Shown: positions 1,150-22,229 of the stretch, one piece after another | Layout: each line of letters starts with the position of its first letter | How positions within the stretch are numbered: the first letter of the stretch is position 1 | Source of the DNA: Tomocerus qinae | Taxonomy: Eukaryota; Arthropoda; Collembola; Entomobryomorpha; Tomoceridae | Length of the DNA stretch: 64,000 bases | Assembly: GCA_020055645.1 (NCBI GenBank) | Contig: CM034546.1 | Span: 117,788,375-117,852,374, forward strand | Direction: 5' to 3' | The notes under the pieces: model-generated | Database searches by the model: none | What the model saw: the letters and a program-made list of their open reading frames with translations, nothing else | What the model was told of the DNA's origin: nothing | Program-made: the position numbers and the translations under genes

Positions 1150-4100
1150 TTGTGCCAAATGTTTCCCCGGTTCGACTATAATTGTTTTGTCATGGAGTAG
1201 CAGTTACGGGTAATTTAAAGGGTTAATTTCGGTTTATATTTTACTATTTGGTATCTGGCAAACGTGCCTTTGTAATAATATGCCATATCAGCATTCAAGA
1301 GCTCGTGCCGAAACGAAAAGGAAGTATTTTTATAGCTTCTGTTTGATTTACTTCAGCTCTTGAGAATTTTTAGGTGTTTTCCCCGACTTTTATGTACTTT
1401 TAGAGACTAAATATTTGATATTATCGTACTAGACTCGTAGGTAAAAGTGCAAGGACTGTACTTTTTTGTGTAACTGTTTCTAGTTTGAGAATATGCTGCA
1501 GTTGCATGTAGCAAATAGTCAAGAGTACTATGTAGGGGATTTACTAATGTGTTAATGCATAGTAGATGCAACTTTTATTTTAGCATCAGCTCTGTTTTCG
1601 CAAGCCACGAGTGAGAAAGTCATTTGTCAGCATAATTATTGGATTATTCACCTCTGATTCATAGTTCTTCATCCATTATACATTCAACAAGAGCTCCTAA
1701 TACTCCTTAAGTGACTTTAATTCTCCTATTAGCTTGCTACATTAGCTTAAATGTTCAGCGAGCGTGGTTGTGCTTTAAGTAGAACTCCCGGCTTGTTTTT
1801 TTTCTTGTTCACAACGTTATTTCATGTGTTCTAGAATTCAATTGGCAAATAGCTATATATAGTAACTACCAACTGTAATGGCACATTGTTATATCAATTA
1901 TTCTGTACCTATACGTAGTAATGGCACAGACGGAATTTGTCAGTCATCCATAGTTAAAATATATCCTATGTAATCCAATTAGATACTATACACAGGTAGG
2001 TTTACTTAGTATCTAGCTACTGGAAGAAATGAAATATTAAATTATCAGTCCTTTGCTGTACAGCAATATTTACACAATACCCACAATACAATACGCAGAC
2101 TCTTTATTGCAAGATGCTAATAATATTTACTTTTCCGATATCTGATTCTGCATTAATGTATTGCCAATATTGTGCCGACTAGACTAGATGTATTAGCGTA
2201 TATGCAATTCTAATTAAATTAATTCCATCCCAGTGACAATGTAGGGTGTTTAGGGACCATGTGAGGGGTTCTTACTATAATATTATAGTTCACAATGCTC
2301 TACCTACGCACATCTGACGAAGTACAAAATGAAAAAGTATATACTGCTACACCATCGCGTAAATCTACTTGCACCTGGGCAAATCTATTTGCACAATAAT
2401 TACAATAAGTGCGTGTTTAAGTACTTCTGTCTTATTCTACTATACCGTACGCATTAAAACGTAACGGGATTAGTTAGCTTACTCTGTGCATTACATTGTC
2501 AAAGATGTGTATGGTAAAATGTAAATTCTTCCAAGGTGTTAAATGAGCTGACCTAGTATTATCTGTGTAAGACATTTCCGTAGGCAATTAAGTAAATGCT
2601 ACGCACATTCTACACGTGCACAATAGGTTCAGCACTTTTAAGATATGTGGTCTTGCAATGCGTGGTAAATTGTATTTCATGACATTTTGAGCCGTTTTCT
2701 TCTATTCCGTGCATATACGAAAGCGGTGCTAATTTTTGATACGCAATTGTAATTGCAAATAAATACAATTCTTTTAAACAAAATAGCCAAGCAAGTAAAT
2801 ATCGTAAAATCCCATTTTCCAGCGTGTGAAGGACTCTATCTCTATAATCTAAGCTACTATACGTATCTTTTAGCTGTATCTGTATATTTTATAAGATAAA
2901 TAGTTAACTTTGCTAGTGTAAATATTTTCTATATTTTATGATTGTAATTCTATTTTGAGCATGTCATTTTTGAGCATACCTTTTTCAGAATTTTATTGAA
3001 TGTGCATTTTCAATTTACATTCTTTTGACAATGCAAATCCATATGGACATGACCTTGAGGATCCTAAAACTTATTTGCGCGTACGGACTTGCTAAGTCGT
3101 AAAACACGGATGAGCTATGCAATATAGCTTTTTCTCATGGTTGACGAATATGTTATGGAACTATAAAAATGATAGTAAGTGACTAGAAATAATTCTTTAT
3201 AGTTTATAGTTATCTATAAAAATGAGCAGCAATATAGAAATAGATTTCCGTTTGGGAGCGATAAGACTGTAGCTTATCTATTGAAGCACCTCCATTACGT
3301 AGAAGCAGGTAGCTCTGTCATGGATAAACAAAAACAGGACAATCATCATTAAGATGTTTATAGGAGGCATACATGGATATTATGAATGGTAGTAATAATT
3401 ATATTATTGCCCCTAAAGCATTGATAATGGTACCCATTTGTAAAGGGGACAGGTTGTCATAAAGGAACGTGCCTTTTGTCACATTGATATTAACTGCCAC
3501 AGTCGTTCACATCAATTACAAAGCAATAGAATAAACCACCTTTTCTCTCAAGGATAATGACTAATGACATAATACTTTACTACCGAGTTATGTATACTTT
3601 TGGTGTTGAAGAACGTAGTACTTAAAGTGTCAACGCATACTAGCACATGTGTATGATAATTTGTCTATGTAAGGATAGGTAACGTAATTTAAACGTAATA
3701 AACAATGCGTAGATCTATTATGATACTTACGATTAACACAGCAGTAGAGTTGGAGATAATGGGAGGATATTTATTATTGCCTTCATGCAAAATACAGAGG
3801 ATATTGTAAATAGTACATCATCAATGCTCGACCGCATCCCAGAATATCCCACCCGTAATCTAGTATCTATATGTACTATCTTTAGTTTAATTATAAAGTT
3901 AAGTGTCTTGAGAATATTAATACCCAATGATTTTAACAGCTGAAATGACATCCAAGGTGTGGAAAACGTTATTATTATTGGCTTGTAGAGGAATGCTTAG
4001 GTAAGCATTGAAACGTATGCATTATTGCATGGACATTTGAAATTAAAAATTAAATGCATGGCTAGTTGGCTAGTTTTTTACGATAAGTTAGTTTATGAGG

Positions 4101-4639: not shown

Positions 4640-5511
4640 TTGGAGTATCGTTTTATGCAGATGGAGATTGCATAGGCACTTTTAATCTTGTCTACATACT
4701 ATCTTGAATGAATCTGTACAAAATTGTGTTATGAATACACCTTAAATGTAGAGTAGACAATATTCATGTACTTACTTCAGTGCTACTACAAAATTACAAT
4801 TTGCTTTGGATTTCTACTTGGTATGTTGCTTTTGTTGTCAAGCATAAGGTATGTAATACTAGCACTTTAATGAATAGAAAGTAGGACTTGTTAAATAGAT
4901 GCTAATTGACTGTAATTTCAAGAGCTGGAGTAGTAGAGACGAATAACAATGAAGATGATAATATACGTAAGGAGACTACTAGGCTGGATATAAAGAGTAC
5001 CTACACACACCCATTTGTTTATACTCTACAGGTTGGTCCACATAAACGCTTTATGTTCATGCTTAACAGTAACACTAATAATGTCAGAGATGACTAATCG
5101 GCAACTGAAATAAGCATAAGATATAACTTAAGACGTGTCTCTACGTACTTAACTTAAGAGACTTTCAGCATCCTCTCACTCACACCTTACGCATTCACTC
5201 TCTTCATTTCGTAAGAACTGATCTTTCGGTGAGACCTGCTGGGCCAGGCAATAAGGATAGATCTTTGTTTAGCAACAATAGCTCTGTTGTATAATCCTTG
5301 TTACAAAATACAAGAAAGTAACGAATCTGGGTCGAAATTCCTACTCAATCACATACACACATCTTTGTACCTATAGTCCGAATTTTAGTACTTTTTCAAA
5401 TTAAGTAGAAATATGTGATTTCATGAAGCCCAAAATTCTTCCTGTTCCAAATCTCGTAAAACAAGAAAGTTGTGCTGATTTTTCATTCCATTTTCAACCT
5501 CCTTTGTACAG
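4640..5511 (+). promoter_or_regulatory. Upstream region of the claudin-like gene, probable 5' UTR intron
   Basis: A strong 3' splice site (a pyrimidine-rich tract, then TTTGTACAG ending at 5511) precedes the exon carrying the claudin-like start codon, so at least one untranslated exon should lie upstream. The stretch at about 5160-5229 is slightly richer in C and ends TTTCG followed by GTGAGA, a good donor, and is the best local candidate for that untranslated exon. The exact transcription start cannot be fixed from sequence. Confidence 0.3.
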
Positions 5512-5615
5512 GTCCACGCCTAAATCTAAAGTTACTCCTAGCTAGATTAATTTTTTAACCCTATTTACTCTGCAAAGGATTTTGTATCCTTTAACATTAG
5601 AATAGTGACACAAAC

Positions 5616-7179
5616 ATGGAAGATGATGACAGTTCAAACGGAGTTTGTGGCGGAAGGTCAGTTTTTGGGCACCTCGCAGCACTGTTATTTTTCATAGCGT
5701 TCTTAGTAATATTTACTGCCTATGTATCTCCCGACTGGCTTCGTGTGGATGACGATAAGAAACCTCCTGGAACCAAGTTCCAGAAAATGGGACTCTGGAT
5801 GAGTTGTTACACAGATTTACATGACGCATACTACTACGATCCTTATCTTACGGGCGGATATGATGGGTGTCGATGGGTCTATTATCCCGTTGTGGCAAGA
5901 TTTGCCGATTTAAAAGAATTTACTCTTCCTGGTAAGTCATTTTTCATGGTACATTTTTACTCTCAACTAATTTTATTTCTATTAATACTGCAATTATATT
6001 CCATTATATATACAGGTTTCATCAGATTCTGAAAATATAATGTTTCCTTTCGTAATTCTGTACATTAGTATTAAATGAAACTTGGTCTCACAAGTTCTAA
6101 TCACAACCTCAATAAATTCCCAGCACAAGTATAAAATAGATTTATAGAACTGCTTTTAATATTTTACTACTTGAAATCAAGGAAGATAGATATAGGTAAT
6201 AGGTTAACCTGGAAGAATAATAGTGTGGATGGGACGAGGACAGTAGCGGAGCTGCAACCACGACATTTCCAAATACAATTACAACCTGTCAGTTGACAGG
6301 AGAATTAATTGGCGCCTCCTACTATATAATATCTATCTCATTGACTCACATTACCAATACCATTAACTCCCGCTCAGACTGTTGGACCAAAAAATCTCCT
6401 ACTATAACCCTAGATTTTAGATGGCTTAGCCATGGGTTGCTTGAAATATAAAATGTCATGTTAATGCAATTAGTACATGTGCATCGTTTGTTTTGGTAAA
6501 ATTAGATGAGTCTGATTGGAAATATTATGACAATGTATTGATGAGACATTTTGTTTGTTATATGCTTGTTATGCAATGTGCATGAATCATAGAGAACCTA
6601 ATTTAATTTCGAAGCTAATTGAAAACAATTTGTTAATTTCAGCGTTCTTGATCCCAGTTCAAGTGTTATTCACTCTTTGTTTTCTTCTCCTGCTCATCTG
6701 TTTGTTTCTTGTGATTGTATACATTGCAAGATTTACTACAGAACATGATGGTCTTGTACATTATCTAATAGTTATTGGAATGACATTAAATTCCTCAGGT
6801 ATGTGAAAACATAAATATATTATGTAATCATGACTGAAAACTACAAACCCAAATAAGCAAAATGTTTTACATTAGTGGAAATAATTTGGAATTGGTTATT
6901 TTTTCCAAAGCACTTATGGGGACCGTAGCTGTTATTATCTTCGGATCCATGAGTGCAAGTAGGACGTGGTCACCCGACTGGCAATTCAACTATCCAGCGT
7001 GGGCATTTGTATGTGCTGTAATTGGAGTGGTCCTTGAGCATTTGGCTGGAATCCTCTTTCTTTTGGAAGCAAGTTGTCAATTTCGAAATCGAAAACGATA
7101 TGCACATGGATCATACAATATGTCAACCTTTGGAACACGTGGAACTGCGACTAAAGACTCCAGTCCAAAGAAATCATGA
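5616..7179 (+). CDS. Claudin-like four-pass membrane protein (PMP22/EMP/claudin superfamily), 246 aa
   Basis: Three coding exons: 5616-5931, 6643-6798 and 6911-7179, joined by GT-AG introns of 711 and 112 nt, both phase 1. The ATG is preceded by CAAAC and is the first in the exon that opens at 5512. Transmembrane helices lie at about residues 16-37, 107-135, 144-173 and 189-211. The first extracellular loop carries the superfamily signature: W41, G59-L-W61, C64 and C85. Members of this family build paracellular barriers, in arthropods mainly septate junctions (Sinuous, Megatrachea, Kune-kune and the Pasiflora proteins of Drosophila). I cannot assign it to one subfamily. The second loop ends PDWQFNYPAW just before helix 4, and a basic cytoplasmic tail follows (FRNRKRY). 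The frame ends at TGA 7177-7179 but stays open for another 350 codons (separate entry). Confidence 0.92.
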
Positions 7180-7185
7180 CAATTA
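7177..7185 (+). promoter_or_regulatory. Leaky stop context TGA CAA TTA
   Basis: The stop codon TGA is followed directly by CAA TTA. This matches the CAR-YYA hexamer that makes the tobacco mosaic virus replicase stop leaky and that supports readthrough of all three stop codons when tested. TGA followed by C is also the context most associated with readthrough in Drosophila. Here the motif sits exactly where a long coding-like frame continues. That leakiness happens in this animal is an inference. Confidence 0.75.
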
Positions 7186-8232
7186 ACAGCGGGACAAAAA
7201 CCACAACTTTCTGAAAATAAAGACCTTTCGAGAGAAACTCCTCAACCAAAACCTTCGGCTCCGGTTTCAAATTTCACAGAGCCAGATTCAGAAAGTCGAG
7301 GACTTGTTCCGCGTCTCGTACAAAGGATTACAACAGCAGCTAAAGAATTCCGATCTCCGTCTATTTCCGGTTTATCAGGAAACGAATCATTTCAACCTGC
7401 CACAATTGCATCTACACAGCCTGTAAAAAGTTCTGCAAGAGGTAGTTTTAAAGCAATTTTCAACCCAACTCCAACTGCCTCTTCGGATGACTCTGGAGGA
7501 GAGAACGAAAGTATGATCCAATCTTCCAAAATTCTTCCTAGCAGTACACCTACAAATATCCCTGCGATCATCCCAGTGTCCACAACTACAATTTATTCTC
7601 AACCGCAGACAAAAGAGCCAGAAAAAAAGCAAATGATGTCTTCTGCTTTGATGAGTAAATTTTCGTCGAGGGGAGCCGAGAAGCCTTTGCCACAGACTCA
7701 GCCCCTCTCAAATAAAACAAGCGATGAAATTGACAGAAAAGTTATTGCTGCAATGTCTGCCAACAAACCTTTGTCTACACAACAGCAGCCTCTTTCCACT
7801 CAGAATCTTCCACATTATCCCCCGTCAAGTTATTCAGCAGCATCGACTCTTCGCTCCATTGATAAATATTTCAGCAGAACATCTGCAGAGCCAGAAAAGA
7901 TACCAAGAAAATCTCCTCCTAAACGGGAATCTGATTCAGACTCTTCGCCCCCTCCATTACCTGCAGTTCCACCTCCGAAGAGATTATCCAGTCCTACTAG
8001 GGAAATCCCTATCCACATTGTGGAAGACACTATTCGTGCTAGTAGCAGTGCCAGCAGCAGTTCCAAGCCAATATCCGCTGCTGCAGCAGTGGCCGAAATT
8101 TTGGCAGCGCATAAACCTTTAGCTCTACGAATTCATATACAAAAACAAAAAACTGAAACTTCCTATTCTAAAACTTGTGTAGCTGAACCAAAAAATGGCT
8201 CTGGATTCGATTACAAAGAGTCCTGTTTATAA
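7180..8232 (+). CDS. In-frame C-terminal extension of the claudin-like protein by stop readthrough, 350 codons
   Basis: The frame of the claudin-like exon runs without any stop from CAA at 7180 to TAA at 8230-8232. The first Met codon is at 7513, so 111 codons lack a start and the segment is best read as an extension giving a 597-residue protein. The peptide is Ser/Pro/Lys-rich and probably disordered, as expected for a cytoplasmic tail. It contains a segment like an amphipathic helix (LVPRLVQRITTAAKEF), a proline-rich SH3-ligand-like run PPPLPAVPPPKR at residues 504-515, Ser-rich runs, and an Ala-rich stretch (SAAAAVAEILAAHKP) before the end KESCL. Codon choice looks coding, richer in G and C than the flanks. 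Alternatives are removal of the stop by a 51-nt in-frame intron (GT 7139-7140, AG 7188-7189, weak donor) or a recent nonsense change or sequence error. Confidence 0.75.
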   Translation, partial: QLTAGQKPQLSENKDLSRETPQPKPSAPVSNFTEPDSESRGLVPRLVQRITTAAKEFRSPSISGLSGNESFQPATIASTQPVKSSARGSFKAIFNPTPTASSDDSGGENESMIQSSKILPSSTPTNIPAIIPVSTTTIYSQPQTKEPEKKQMMSSALMSKFSSRGAEKPLPQTQPLSNKTSDEIDRKVIAAMSANKPLSTQQQPLSTQNLPHYPPSSYSAASTLRSIDKYFSRTSAEPEKIPRKSPPKRESDSDSSPPPLPAVPPPKRLSSPTREIPIHIVEDTIRASSSASSSSKPISAAAAVAEILAAHKPLALRIHIQKQKTETSYSKTCVAEPKNGSGFDYKESCL

Positions 8233-8300
8233 ATGGAATGCTTAATACCTACTTTATATACAATTTTATGCTTAAGGTCAACAAATATGCTTTTTAAAGT

Positions 8301-8306
8301 AATAAA
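8301..8306 (+). terminator. Poly(A) signal AATAAA of the claudin-like gene
   Basis: AATAAA lies 69 nt after the TAA that ends the extension, whereas the TGA is over 1100 nt upstream. A second AATAAA follows at 8592-8597. The first signal lying just past the extension, not just past the TGA, shows that the extension is within the mature transcript whichever stop is used. Confidence 0.6.
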
Positions 8307-8828
8307 TCATAATTTTTAAGAATCAAGCTATAAATTGTTAACCTAATGTCATGTCATCGATCAATAACTCCTGATTCCTTGTAAATATTGTTGCTTACTT
8401 ATTTTACATCGTTTTTCATTTACCGTATTTACCCTTTATTGTGTATAGCCACGTCTCCATTCTCACTCTAATTGAACATACCTGTTAACAACAACCATTA
8501 TGTTAATAGACCTAATCAGGTAGACATTACTCTAACTGTAGTCTAAAGTTTTTGTTATTTACATAAATACAGTTTACAAAGTAACATGAAAAATAAACAA
8601 TGTGTTCACTGACTTTTCTAGCATGCGGCCCTTTTGAAATTTCTTAGTCCAAAAACCTTTCCATATTTTATTACTACAATTATTTTGAATTTCAATTTAG
8701 TTGGAAATGTTGGAATTTCATGCATCTATTTCGGATTATTCCACTTTCGCAATGCACTGGTTGATTATGCAAAAAATGTCAATCATAACCATACAGTGTG
8801 ACAAAGGCCGGACAGCGTCACGTAAACT

Positions 8829-9012
8829 GGTCTTAGTAAACTTGCCTTTTGTGCAAAACTATTAACTAGTAACCTTGGTCTTAAATTAAGACTTGAGACC
8901 TCTGTATATTTTATTCTAGGTTCTTTGCTTGAGACTTGTACTTCTTTGGAAAACTGGGTATACTTTTACTGTAACATTTTACTTTTACCGAAAAAGCCAG
9001 TTTACTAAGACG
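8829..9012. mobile_element. Short terminal-inverted-repeat element, 184 bp
   Basis: A perfect 13-bp inverted repeat (GTCTTAGTAAACT at 8830-8842, its complement at 8999-9011) extends inward with a few mismatches to about 21 bp. AACT flanks both ends (8825-8828 and 9013-9016), a possible 4-bp target duplication. The interior has no coding capacity and contains a near-palindrome, GTCTTAAATTAAGAC, around 8879. It is unrelated in end sequence to the element at 4418-4636. Confidence 0.45.
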
Positions 9013-9119
9013 AACTATTATTATTTACTTAGAACCGACAGAGATACTCATTCGACAAAATAGTTTCAGTCGTTAATATTAATAATTGAACTGATATATT
9101 TGAGAAATTTTATGAATTA

Positions 9120-9125
9120 TTTATT
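9120..9125 (-). terminator. Poly(A) signal AATAAA of GSTO (minus strand)
   Basis: TTTATT on the plus strand reads AATAAA on the minus strand, about 140 nt past the GSTO stop codon at 9267-9269. Confidence 0.55.
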
Positions 9126-9266
9126 AATATTTGACAGTGCTTCTTATGGATTAAATTCTGTCCATAGACATTCAATGCACATTGATTATAGGCACCAATA
9201 GAAAAATATGTAATGCTAGTGTAGCAGCAGGTACACCTTAAGTAGCGGAATTAGTTGAGGAAGAAT

Positions 9267-11762
9267 TCATAGACAGTATTGTGCTAAATTGAGCAAAGCT
9301 GTAACTGAAGATCCTCCTTCGCTTCTTTGTTCAAGGATATCATAATTAGGAGATCCTGTTATGTAAGTCTTCCTGTACTCGAAATGCACCTTTTCTTCTA
9401 TAATCGTTGCCAAAACCGCTTTATCTTGTTTCATTGCCACAATCCACTTTACCTATAGAAAGTAACAGCAAAGCATTTATACAATATTCCTTCCAAGACT
9501 ATACATCAAAGATCATTGCAAGTGTAATTACCATATTTGGGATACAAATAGATAAATCTCCAAGATTTAGATCGATTCTTTTGTAAAAATGATTAACATT
9601 CGGTAGTCTTTCCATCCATGGCCAAATCATATAATCCAGCATTCCTGGTGCATCGTTCCCTGAAAAAATAGAAGAAATTATGAAAAATATTTCTGTCTTG
9701 ACAAAATCTGCAACTTTCTGATGTATACCTCCATAGAATAGTGTTCCTCGTCTTGATAACTCTTTCTCAAAAACAACTAACGCATTAGTAAGTTCTTTCA
9801 GCACATCCATAGCTTCCTTCTGATCCACTGTTTCTCTGCCTATCAACTCCAAACTTTTGTAGTAAAGACTTATAACCTGTTGGAAAATGAAAGATTAATG
9901 GTTATCCATTCATTGCAATCAAATTGAAAATTAACTAAAATTTTATCAGATCTACTATATTTTCGTACTGAAAATACAATTGCCGATTCATACGCTTATA
10001 GCACCAAAAAAAGTTAACACAAATTACTTTGTTAAAACGTTCAACCCAAACTCGGTCCAATCCTTTTTGATATGGAACTGGGGAGTTCAGTTTTCTTCCT
10101 GAATAATTTTCATCGATGTAATCACAAACAATTAAACTTTCATACAAAATTCCATTAGCATCTTCAGTAGTCGGCACTTTTCCTAAAGGATTTTTTTCCA
10201 GTAAGAATTCTGGTTTTTGTTTTAAGTTGCAATTTACCACGTCGTATCTGCAAATATTTCACAATTGAATTTCCAAATGTTCAAGTTCTTATGTTATTGA
10301 ATTAAATTATGATAATATAAATTTCTTACTGAATGTTTTTGGCTTCAGCAACAAGTACAGCCCTTTGAGCATATGGACAAAATCTCATATTGTAAATTCG
10401 AAGTATTCCTTCTTTCAATGGAGGACATTGAGCACCTGTAATTACCACATGCATATAATTAATTATTGTACCTTGCATGTCCTTTAGCCCCTTAACTGCT
10501 TATCTATCTGCACTCATAAATAATGTATTTCGTCGTGTTTTGGTCTTCACCCACCTTTAAATATGTGCTATATAACCATTTAAAAAAATAAATACTATCT
10601 GTGTTTGTACATACTCTAGAATACTGGCTTTTTGTCCATGGCTATACATCATCTACACAGGTCATATTAGTCCAATGAAATTTTGTAATTTGGAATTTAA
10701 ATCCTTAAGACGGCCTTTTTAATGGTATAAGCCTTGTTAATGTAGTTATACACGGGGGCTATTTATTTTTAGGTTGATGATTTATGTAATCATAGTATTA
10801 GTCTTATATGATCCTAAACGACAATTTTCATATTAGTTTAATGTCGTACTTTCAGTCAGACAAAGTAGGAGAAGTCCAAAGCATAAAATTGCTATCATAT
10901 ATAGATATCTTTGCGATTTTTCAAGAATAATGATTACATTAAAACATTTCAATTTTATGAAAATGTCAAAAGAATATCGTCATGTAAGGAGTGTGTTAAA
11001 TACAAATTATATCAATAATAATTTTGTCAAACAATTACTAGATGAAGTAAGAAATACGTAGATATTTTAAGGAGGTAAATATCATTCGAACCAAGAAGCT
11101 TTAACCTGGGGTATCCTTTGATTCGAACGATGAAGCGAATCATTACTATATAATAAAAATATTTAATCCTATGTTTTATGTATCCATGTCTCTTGGACTT
11201 TGTGGCTTTTTGTTGCAATGAGCAAGCGTATGCATAACAAAACGGGTCAAAAGTATTTCGAAATTAACCAATACACATGATTATGCTGGATGCCTATCTT
11301 TCCAAATCGAGTCACTCATGCTGGGGGCTACTAGTAAACTATATAACAGAATATTTTTACCAAATGTCTGCCGATATGTCAAAAATATTGGAAAAGTTGA
11401 GATACATATCATGAAATGTCATTTTTTGGTTTTACCATCCAAACATACACACGACGAACTTATAAGTAAATTATTTGGTGCTCTAACGTCAGAGTTTTGT
11501 AAATACATATATAACCTAACAGCAAAACAATATGAATATTATGTTTTAGCATTGCATTACATCGATCAAACTCCAAACCAAACATACTACATATTTTCAT
11601 TAGAAAATTTGAAATATTTATATATAGTCCATAATAATAGTAATAAAATCCATCACAGAGCTATATCTAATCTAAAATGTAATATAATTACATTTCTTTC
11701 ACCAGCAAGAATTTCAATGTGTGAAGTTAAAACTTACCAGTGGACAAATGTTTAGAGTTCAT
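9267..11762 (-). CDS. GSTO1: Glutathione S-transferase omega, complete six-exon gene, 270 aa
   Basis: Exons in transcription order: 11738-11762, 10330-10435, 10028-10247, 9729-9876, 9532-9659, 9267-9452. They join in frame at consensus GT-AG sites; introns are 1302, 82, 151, 69 and 79 nt. The start peptide MNSKHLSTG is typical of omega-class N-termini. The thioredoxin-fold half holds the omega active site RFCPYAQR with catalytic Cys28 (other GST classes use Tyr or Ser), then the glutathione-binding motifs KNPLGKVPT and YESLIVCDYIDE. The helical half has the family motif DYMIWPWMERLP. Omega GSTs are cytosolic enzymes with thioltransferase and dehydroascorbate reductase activity used in redox defence and detoxification. 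The product is about 20-30 residues longer than the usual 240-250, with a C-terminal tail after TGSPNYDIL. An A at -3 supports the start codon. No defect is seen. Confidence 0.97.
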
Positions 11763-21899: not shown

Positions 21900-22229
21900 A
21901 CTTTTTTTTGGAAATTCCCTAAGGATCTGAGACCACTGGTCCTACAGCCGTACATTAATTTTTTTAAAATTCTTCGATACTTATTCTATGGTAGTTATAT
22001 TGAAAATTCCACATTTTGGGCTTTGACTTGAAGATATAAATTCGCAATATATAATTCACAAAAAACACACATTTTTCGGCTTCAAACGATGATATCTTCA
22101 AGTCGAAGACCAAAATGTTGAATTTTAAATATAACTACCATAGAATAAGTATCGAAGAATTTTAAAAAAATTATTGGACGGCTGTAGGACCAGTGGTCTC
22201 AGATCCTTAGGGAATTTCCAAAAAAAAGT
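21900..22229. mobile_element. Near-perfect long hairpin (foldback element), 138-bp arms and 54-nt loop
   Basis: Arms 21900-22037 and 22092-22229 are reverse complements with only about six mismatches and no net indels. The tips read ACTTTTTTTTGGAAATTCCC. The low divergence points to a recent insertion or arm homogenisation. It has no coding capacity: the frame open over 21681-22031 overlaps the left arm and is an accident of the repeat. If transcribed it would fold into a long double-stranded RNA, a possible hairpin-siRNA source. No clear target duplication is visible. Confidence 0.75.

Follow-up and report, generated by a model that had tools for sequence, protein, structure and literature searches.

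In this work we describe a claudin gene of the springtail Tomocerus qinae, located in a 64,000-nt stretch of forward-strand DNA (the window; all coordinates given are positions within it), whose reading frame ends at a TGA and then stays open for a further 350 codons. Stop-codon readthrough is the best explanation of this claudin and its extension and, judging from the sequence, we regard it as probable. Indeed, the stop stands in frame within a leaky context, the tail beyond it has the character of coding DNA, and a paralogue in the same genome carries a different leaky context, UGA-CUAG, followed by a second tail with a PDZ-type end. Readthrough had already been proposed in the preliminary description of this DNA; the proposal is upheld here, with the added backing of the paralogue's leaky UGA and of published reporter values for UGA-CARYYA, while its statements on SH3 ligands and on polyadenylation (poly(A)) signals had to be given up.

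The claudin gene comprises three exons on the plus strand, extends over 5616-7179 and encodes 246 amino acids up to the TGA. Exon 1 (5616..5931), which could be aligned to the paralogue, holds the start ATG, the first transmembrane segment (TM1) and extracellular loop 1 with the W-GLW-C-C motif; exon 2 (6643..6798) covers TM2 and the start of TM3; and the coding part of exon 3 (6911..7176) provides the rest of TM3, TM4 and a short cytoplasmic tail ending SSPKKS. Nearby acceptor sites allow three other open combinations, and the exon set given here is preferred because it agrees with the paralogue. The short protein, in which the W-GLW-C-C motif and four transmembrane segments were judged by eye, matches the Pfam family Claudin_2 (PF13903) with 80.5 bits (cut-off 29.1, E=1.9e-22), and claudin matches in the PDB are weak, the best with E=0.0074. 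The gene has in common with locust (Locusta) Sinuous the Claudin_2 domain, the W-GLW-C-C motif and the layout of three exons and two introns (PMC11275452); it differs from it in standing at 42% identity to the sinuous-like copy of its own genome, in its leaky stop and in its 350-codon extension. Its sequence marks it as a diverged paralogue of the sinuous type.

The first stop, which is the proposed readthrough stop, is the TGA at 7177..7179 on the plus strand. The hexamer CAATTA follows directly (7180..7185), and the same frame then runs for 350 codons to the second stop, a TAA at 8230..8232; for all of these the preliminary description had the coordinates right. The readthrough stop of tobacco mosaic virus (TMV) is UAG. 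The CARYYA context described for this virus (PMC4132726) belongs to the same hexamer class as that of the window gene, where it follows a UGA and lies in an animal gene. Placed in the context of OPRL1, UGA-CARYYA gave about 15% readthrough with a reporter in human HEK-293T cells (PMC4132726), and the hexamer tested was presumably CAAUUA, the same as here, since the paper names CAAUUA when mutating the motif. On both strands of the window, CARYYA follows 5 of the 2366 TGAs, the focal site included, and CTAG follows 8; at other loci of the genome, leaving aside the loci of both genes, the counts among 5449 TGAs are 13 for CTAG and 10 for CARYYA. In the alignment, the TGA lies 14 codons beyond that of the paralogue. 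Counted by eye, it comes 35 residues past the end of TM4, the corresponding distances being 22 in the paralogue and 37 in a third claudin, so that the TGA stands at the usual end of these claudins and a chance nonsense mutation or an assembly error is disfavoured.

No stop-to-stop frame of the window, on either strand, is longer than the extension (7180..8229, plus strand), which has 350 codons against 177 for the next one; frames in 40 plus-strand sequences simulated with an order-3 Markov model reached at most 176 codons. A base bias by codon position is present both in codons 1-111 (p=2.6e-8) and in codons 112-350 (p=2.6e-9), and is absent past the second stop (8233-8565, p=0.90) as well as in two further stretches, upstream or intergenic in position (p=0.45 and 0.86). 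Furthermore, codons were scored with a model whose training set comprised 5,457 codons from this genome, taken from 22 exons of kinases and one glycosyltransferase-like frame. It gives +0.10 bits per codon for the extension and +0.08 for the claudin coding sequence, as compared, with stops removed, to -0.01 and -0.07 for the two alternative frames of the extension and -0.21 for 8233-8800. For codons 1-30, directly past the TGA, the codon score is reached by 0.3% of 4,000 stop-free intergenic stretches. The coding signal begins right after the TGA and stops at the second stop. The first 111 codons had been said to contain no Met, which is correct: the first in-frame AUG is codon 112, and the coding signal precedes it. 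A search of the whole genome with the extension returned a single match, the extension itself, and a Pfam search with it matched no family.

The genome searched comprises 334,443,149 bases in 115 contigs, of which contig 1 measures 140 Mb. Searches with Claudin_2 and with the protein uncovered a second claudin on contig 1 at 119.32 Mb, 1.5 Mb away from the window gene (positions 2412-3577 of locus L011, not of the window, corresponding to about 119.322-119.324 Mb). The two claudins are identical in 96 of 231 alignment columns (42%), the alignment stopping two residues before the stop of the paralogue, and the three-exon layout is common to both genes, exon 2 having exactly 156 nt in each. The short form of the paralogue ends YTMETKA and its stop lies in the context GCA-TGA-CTAG. 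The frame runs on for 26 codons past this TGA, LAEERQAQGAAMRPMRPTDPRSVTSL, and closes with VTSL, the last three residues of which, TSL, fit the class-I PDZ pattern; among 4,000 null stretches, 0.5% have a codon score as high as that of these 26 codons. Four mammalian genes that show efficient readthrough in reporters carry the motif UGA-CUAG; in one of them, OPRL1, for which reporter readthrough reached about 31%, the last sense codon is predominantly GCA (PMC4132726). Locust Sinuous is a protein of 221 amino acids encoded by three exons and ends ESKA (PMC11275452); the paralogue is probably the sinuous orthologue, because its ETKA end resembles ESKA and its gene also has three exons. The authors of the locust study call ESKA a PDZ site (PMC11275452), and ETKA itself reads [ST]-x-A, therefore readthrough of the paralogue may swap a PDZ ligand rather than create one. 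Since two related genes have two different leaky contexts, an accident is unlikely, though the coincidence was noticed after the fact.

Other claudins of this genome end in another manner. A third, more distant one on contig 4 (Claudin_2 E=2.6e-13) terminates with HHFV-TAA-ATT, an ordinary stop, and at a further Claudin_2 match (locus L006) the open frame ends TAA-TCC, in an exon that is possibly not the last of its gene. A genome search with PMP22_Claudin for further paralogues gave two sub-threshold matches only, and collections of viral and genome contigs without eukaryotic relatives yielded no relatives. Two loci on contig 1 with a weak, sub-threshold match to the claudin model (L013 and L014, at 1.77 and 1.99 Mb) have open frames of 525 and 791 codons; by eye, their first 300 residues are nearly identical, and they perhaps reflect a recent duplication of an unnamed gene.

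The tail encoded by the extension is rich in Ser (17%) and Pro (12%), and with 65% of disorder-promoting residues it is predicted from composition to be disordered. Its proline patterns, PPLP, LPHYP and LPAVP, are similar to those defined for WW-II and EVH1 ligands, and PPLP and LPAVP both lie in one proline-rich patch, SPPPLPAVPPPKR (7945..7983, plus strand). Class-I PDZ ligands have the C-terminal pattern [ST]-x-hydrophobic, which is fitted by SCL, residues 348-350 of the extension; the long form thus would end in a putative PDZ ligand, ESCL (8218..8229, plus strand), recognised as a sequence pattern. The tail had been described as bearing SH3 ligands. The core patterns of such ligands, [RKY]xxPxxP and PxxPx[KR], are both absent from the extension, which carries the WW/EVH1-like and PDZ patterns instead. 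Moreover, the 8-mer CAGCAGCA has two plus-strand copies in the window, both within the extension (7835 and 8052), and none on the minus strand; this 8-mer is enriched in second open reading frames, or readthrough regions, of the fly (PMC5100048).

A number of results weigh against readthrough. That the first 111 codons are open carries little weight when taken alone (P=0.024). Synonymous codon choice alone gives z=1.65 over the extension, which is not significant, the test being too weak in this genome, and for the extension of the paralogue the synonymous score is reached by 62% of null stretches and is uninformative. A stimulatory RNA structure was sought in five overlapping or adjacent stretches, none of which folded beyond its shuffles (z from -0.08 to +1.66); downstream RNA structure accompanies only a minority of readthrough stops, 9% (PMC5100048), and is not a defining requirement. 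The plus strand carries AATAAA at 7216..7221 and again at 7711-7716, both inside the extension, and the first one beyond the second stop is at 8301..8306. The first nearby poly(A) signal therefore does not lie beyond the extension, as had been claimed; the AATAAA at 7216 could truncate some mRNAs, and might give a short-form mRNA that ends near 7240. The last frame of oaf, the one classic fly readthrough gene examined, ends with TAA in this genome and has no sign of readthrough, so that this positive control for readthrough in the species gave no support. Tribolium and Apis, for their part, failed the test for abundant readthrough applied in a published comparison (PMC5100048).

The last adverse result concerns splicing, which is the rival explanation that survives best, although we consider it unlikely. 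The TGA would be removed from the mRNA, either with an in-frame exitron in exon 3 or by joining exon 2 directly to a site past the TGA. Phase-compatible acceptors are present just past the TGA at 7190 and 7379, and a donor at 7138 would give with them an in-frame intron of 51 or 240 nt. In a leave-one-out evaluation the six real introns of the three claudin genes score 10.6-18.3, and the best exitron, with 10.7, reaches the lower edge of this range; in-sample, with all six introns in the matrix, the same exitron at 10.7 compares with 19.2-27.7 for the real introns. However, its score falls to 9.1 when one similar donor is dropped from the matrix, and pairs scoring at least 10.7 are ordinary in exons, being present in 9 of 64 coding segments of 460 nt from kinase genes of the same genome. 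For donor 7138 the U1 pairing energy is -1.5 kcal/mol, whereas the six real donors range from -4.6 to -10.9. Two further donors in exon 3, at 6958 and 6998 (U1 pairing -4.2 and -4.6), are located upstream of TM4, so that their use would destroy the claudin domain, as would skipping of exon 3. Finally, the stretch that the 240-nt intron would take out has a strong coding bias.

Less likely still is a claudin in which translation normally runs on into the long tail and the TGA arose by recent nonsense mutation, segregates as an allele or results from faulty assembly. One base change would be enough to create it, but the TGA is found only 14 codons past the stop of the paralogue although the frame has 350 more codons, it happens to be one of just 5 among 2366 window TGAs with CARYYA behind them, no further stop has arisen within the 350 codons, and the paralogue carries a leaky UGA of its own. 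Decoding of the UGA as selenocysteine is very unlikely. The genome contains tRNA-Sec-like genes, with three matches over the cut-off, and the machinery probably exists; the tRNA-Sec model also found matches in each of 14 control genomes, and in 5 of these the cut-off was exceeded. No match to an Rfam model of the selenocysteine insertion sequence (SECIS) was obtained in 5500-10500 or in 8200-9300 even at E up to 10, the sensitivity of the SECIS_1 model here being unproven since it matched nothing in the whole genome, and among 10 loose matches to a SECIS pattern in 8233-9500, the best three were folded and had no SECIS-like stem. Two of the three tRNA-Sec matches over the cut-off are situated about 190 kb apart on contig 1. 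Separate initiation of the extension, from an internal or non-AUG start or as a second cistron, is just as unlikely: the in-frame ATG at codon 112 could start 239 codons, but codons 1-111 are as coding-like as the remainder and hold no in-frame AUG, and downstream initiation is contradicted because the coding signal precedes the first Met.

With stop-codon readthrough, a single mRNA of this sinuous-type claudin gene would yield two proteins. The majority of ribosomes would halt at the UGA at 7177 and produce the 246-residue claudin ending KKS, and a minority would decode UGA-CAAUUA by means of a near-cognate tRNA and translate the 350 codons beyond it; from the reporter values, this share could be several per cent to about 15%. 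The long form would combine the same membrane domain with a disordered cytoplasmic tail that bears the WW/EVH1-like proline patch and the putative PDZ ligand ESCL at its C-terminus. Discs large, Scribble and Varicose are PDZ proteins of the septate junction (PMC8006247), and the tail could tether part of the claudin pool to scaffolds of this type.

Readthrough itself is of a kind known in hexapods; what is new is that two claudins of the sinuous type combine leaky stops with PDZ-type tails. The fly annotation of 2015 included 328 readthrough genes, most with extensions of 8-300 amino acids, and disorder is common among the longer extensions (PMC4528330); fly extensions are often described as long, disordered and motif-rich (PMC4528330, PMC4999894). 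Readthrough stops are estimated to number at least 614 in the mosquito and at least 960 in the fly; in both they favour UGA and a following C, and readthrough is inferred to have been abundant in Pancrustacea since they separated from Myriapoda (PMC5100048). The window gene resembles Drosophila and Anopheles readthrough genes, such as caps with its 240-residue extension, in having UGA-C, a long disordered motif-rich tail, a membrane protein as product and no SECIS (PMC4528330, PMC5100048). It differs from them in lineage, belonging to Collembola, and is known from its own genome sequence.

A second likeness is that to AQP4ex, made by readthrough at UGA-CUAG. Aquaporin-4 likewise spans the membrane several times, and its location at a cell contact, the astrocyte endfeet, depends on the readthrough tail (PMC4132726, PMC6444679). 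The same UGA-CUAG is found in the claudin paralogue, whereas the window gene has CAAUUA and a 350-codon tail, and belongs to another protein family. For AQP4, direct binding to a scaffold partner is described in these sources as never demonstrated (PMC4132726, PMC6444679). A literature search over titles and abstract openings, with supplementary gene lists outside its scope, found no report of readthrough in a claudin, nor of such readthrough in Collembola. Likewise, the word claudin is absent from the main texts of PMC5100048, PMC3840789 and PMC4528330, and the main text of PMC3840789 makes no mention of sinu, kune, mega, pck, CG3770 or CG6982.

If true, a very long extension made by functional readthrough would occur in a hexapod that is probably not an insect, and in a family of junction proteins. 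The two paralogues differ in their leaky motif and would each acquire a PDZ-type end, which suggests a testable model in which the efficiency of termination sets the amount of scaffold-bound membrane protein, and a role of the claudin tail would parallel that of the AQP4 readthrough tail, which is needed for placement in glia. A broader and more doubtful proposal is that readthrough with a PDZ end could be a conserved switch of sinuous-type claudins: a leaky UGA where the claudin normally ends would give a minority of the molecules of either paralogue a class-I PDZ ligand at the C-terminus, the efficiency of termination setting the scaffold-tethered share. Such a switch may predate the split of the paralogues and also occur in further hexapods.

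Just downstream of the claudin gene, and convergent with it, an omega-class glutathione S-transferase gene of several exons occupies 9499-10499 on the minus strand, and its best PDB match is pyrimidodiazepine synthase. The 7tm_6 odorant-receptor model gave one match in the genome, in an open frame that fits the 7tm_7 chemosensory (gustatory-type) model better. These features fit, though weakly, a hexapod outside the insects, most likely a springtail. Further along the window, at 21900-22229, lies an inverted repeat with 138-nt arms that are 96% complementary and separated by a 54-nt spacer, which could be a foldback element or one resembling a miniature inverted-repeat transposable element.

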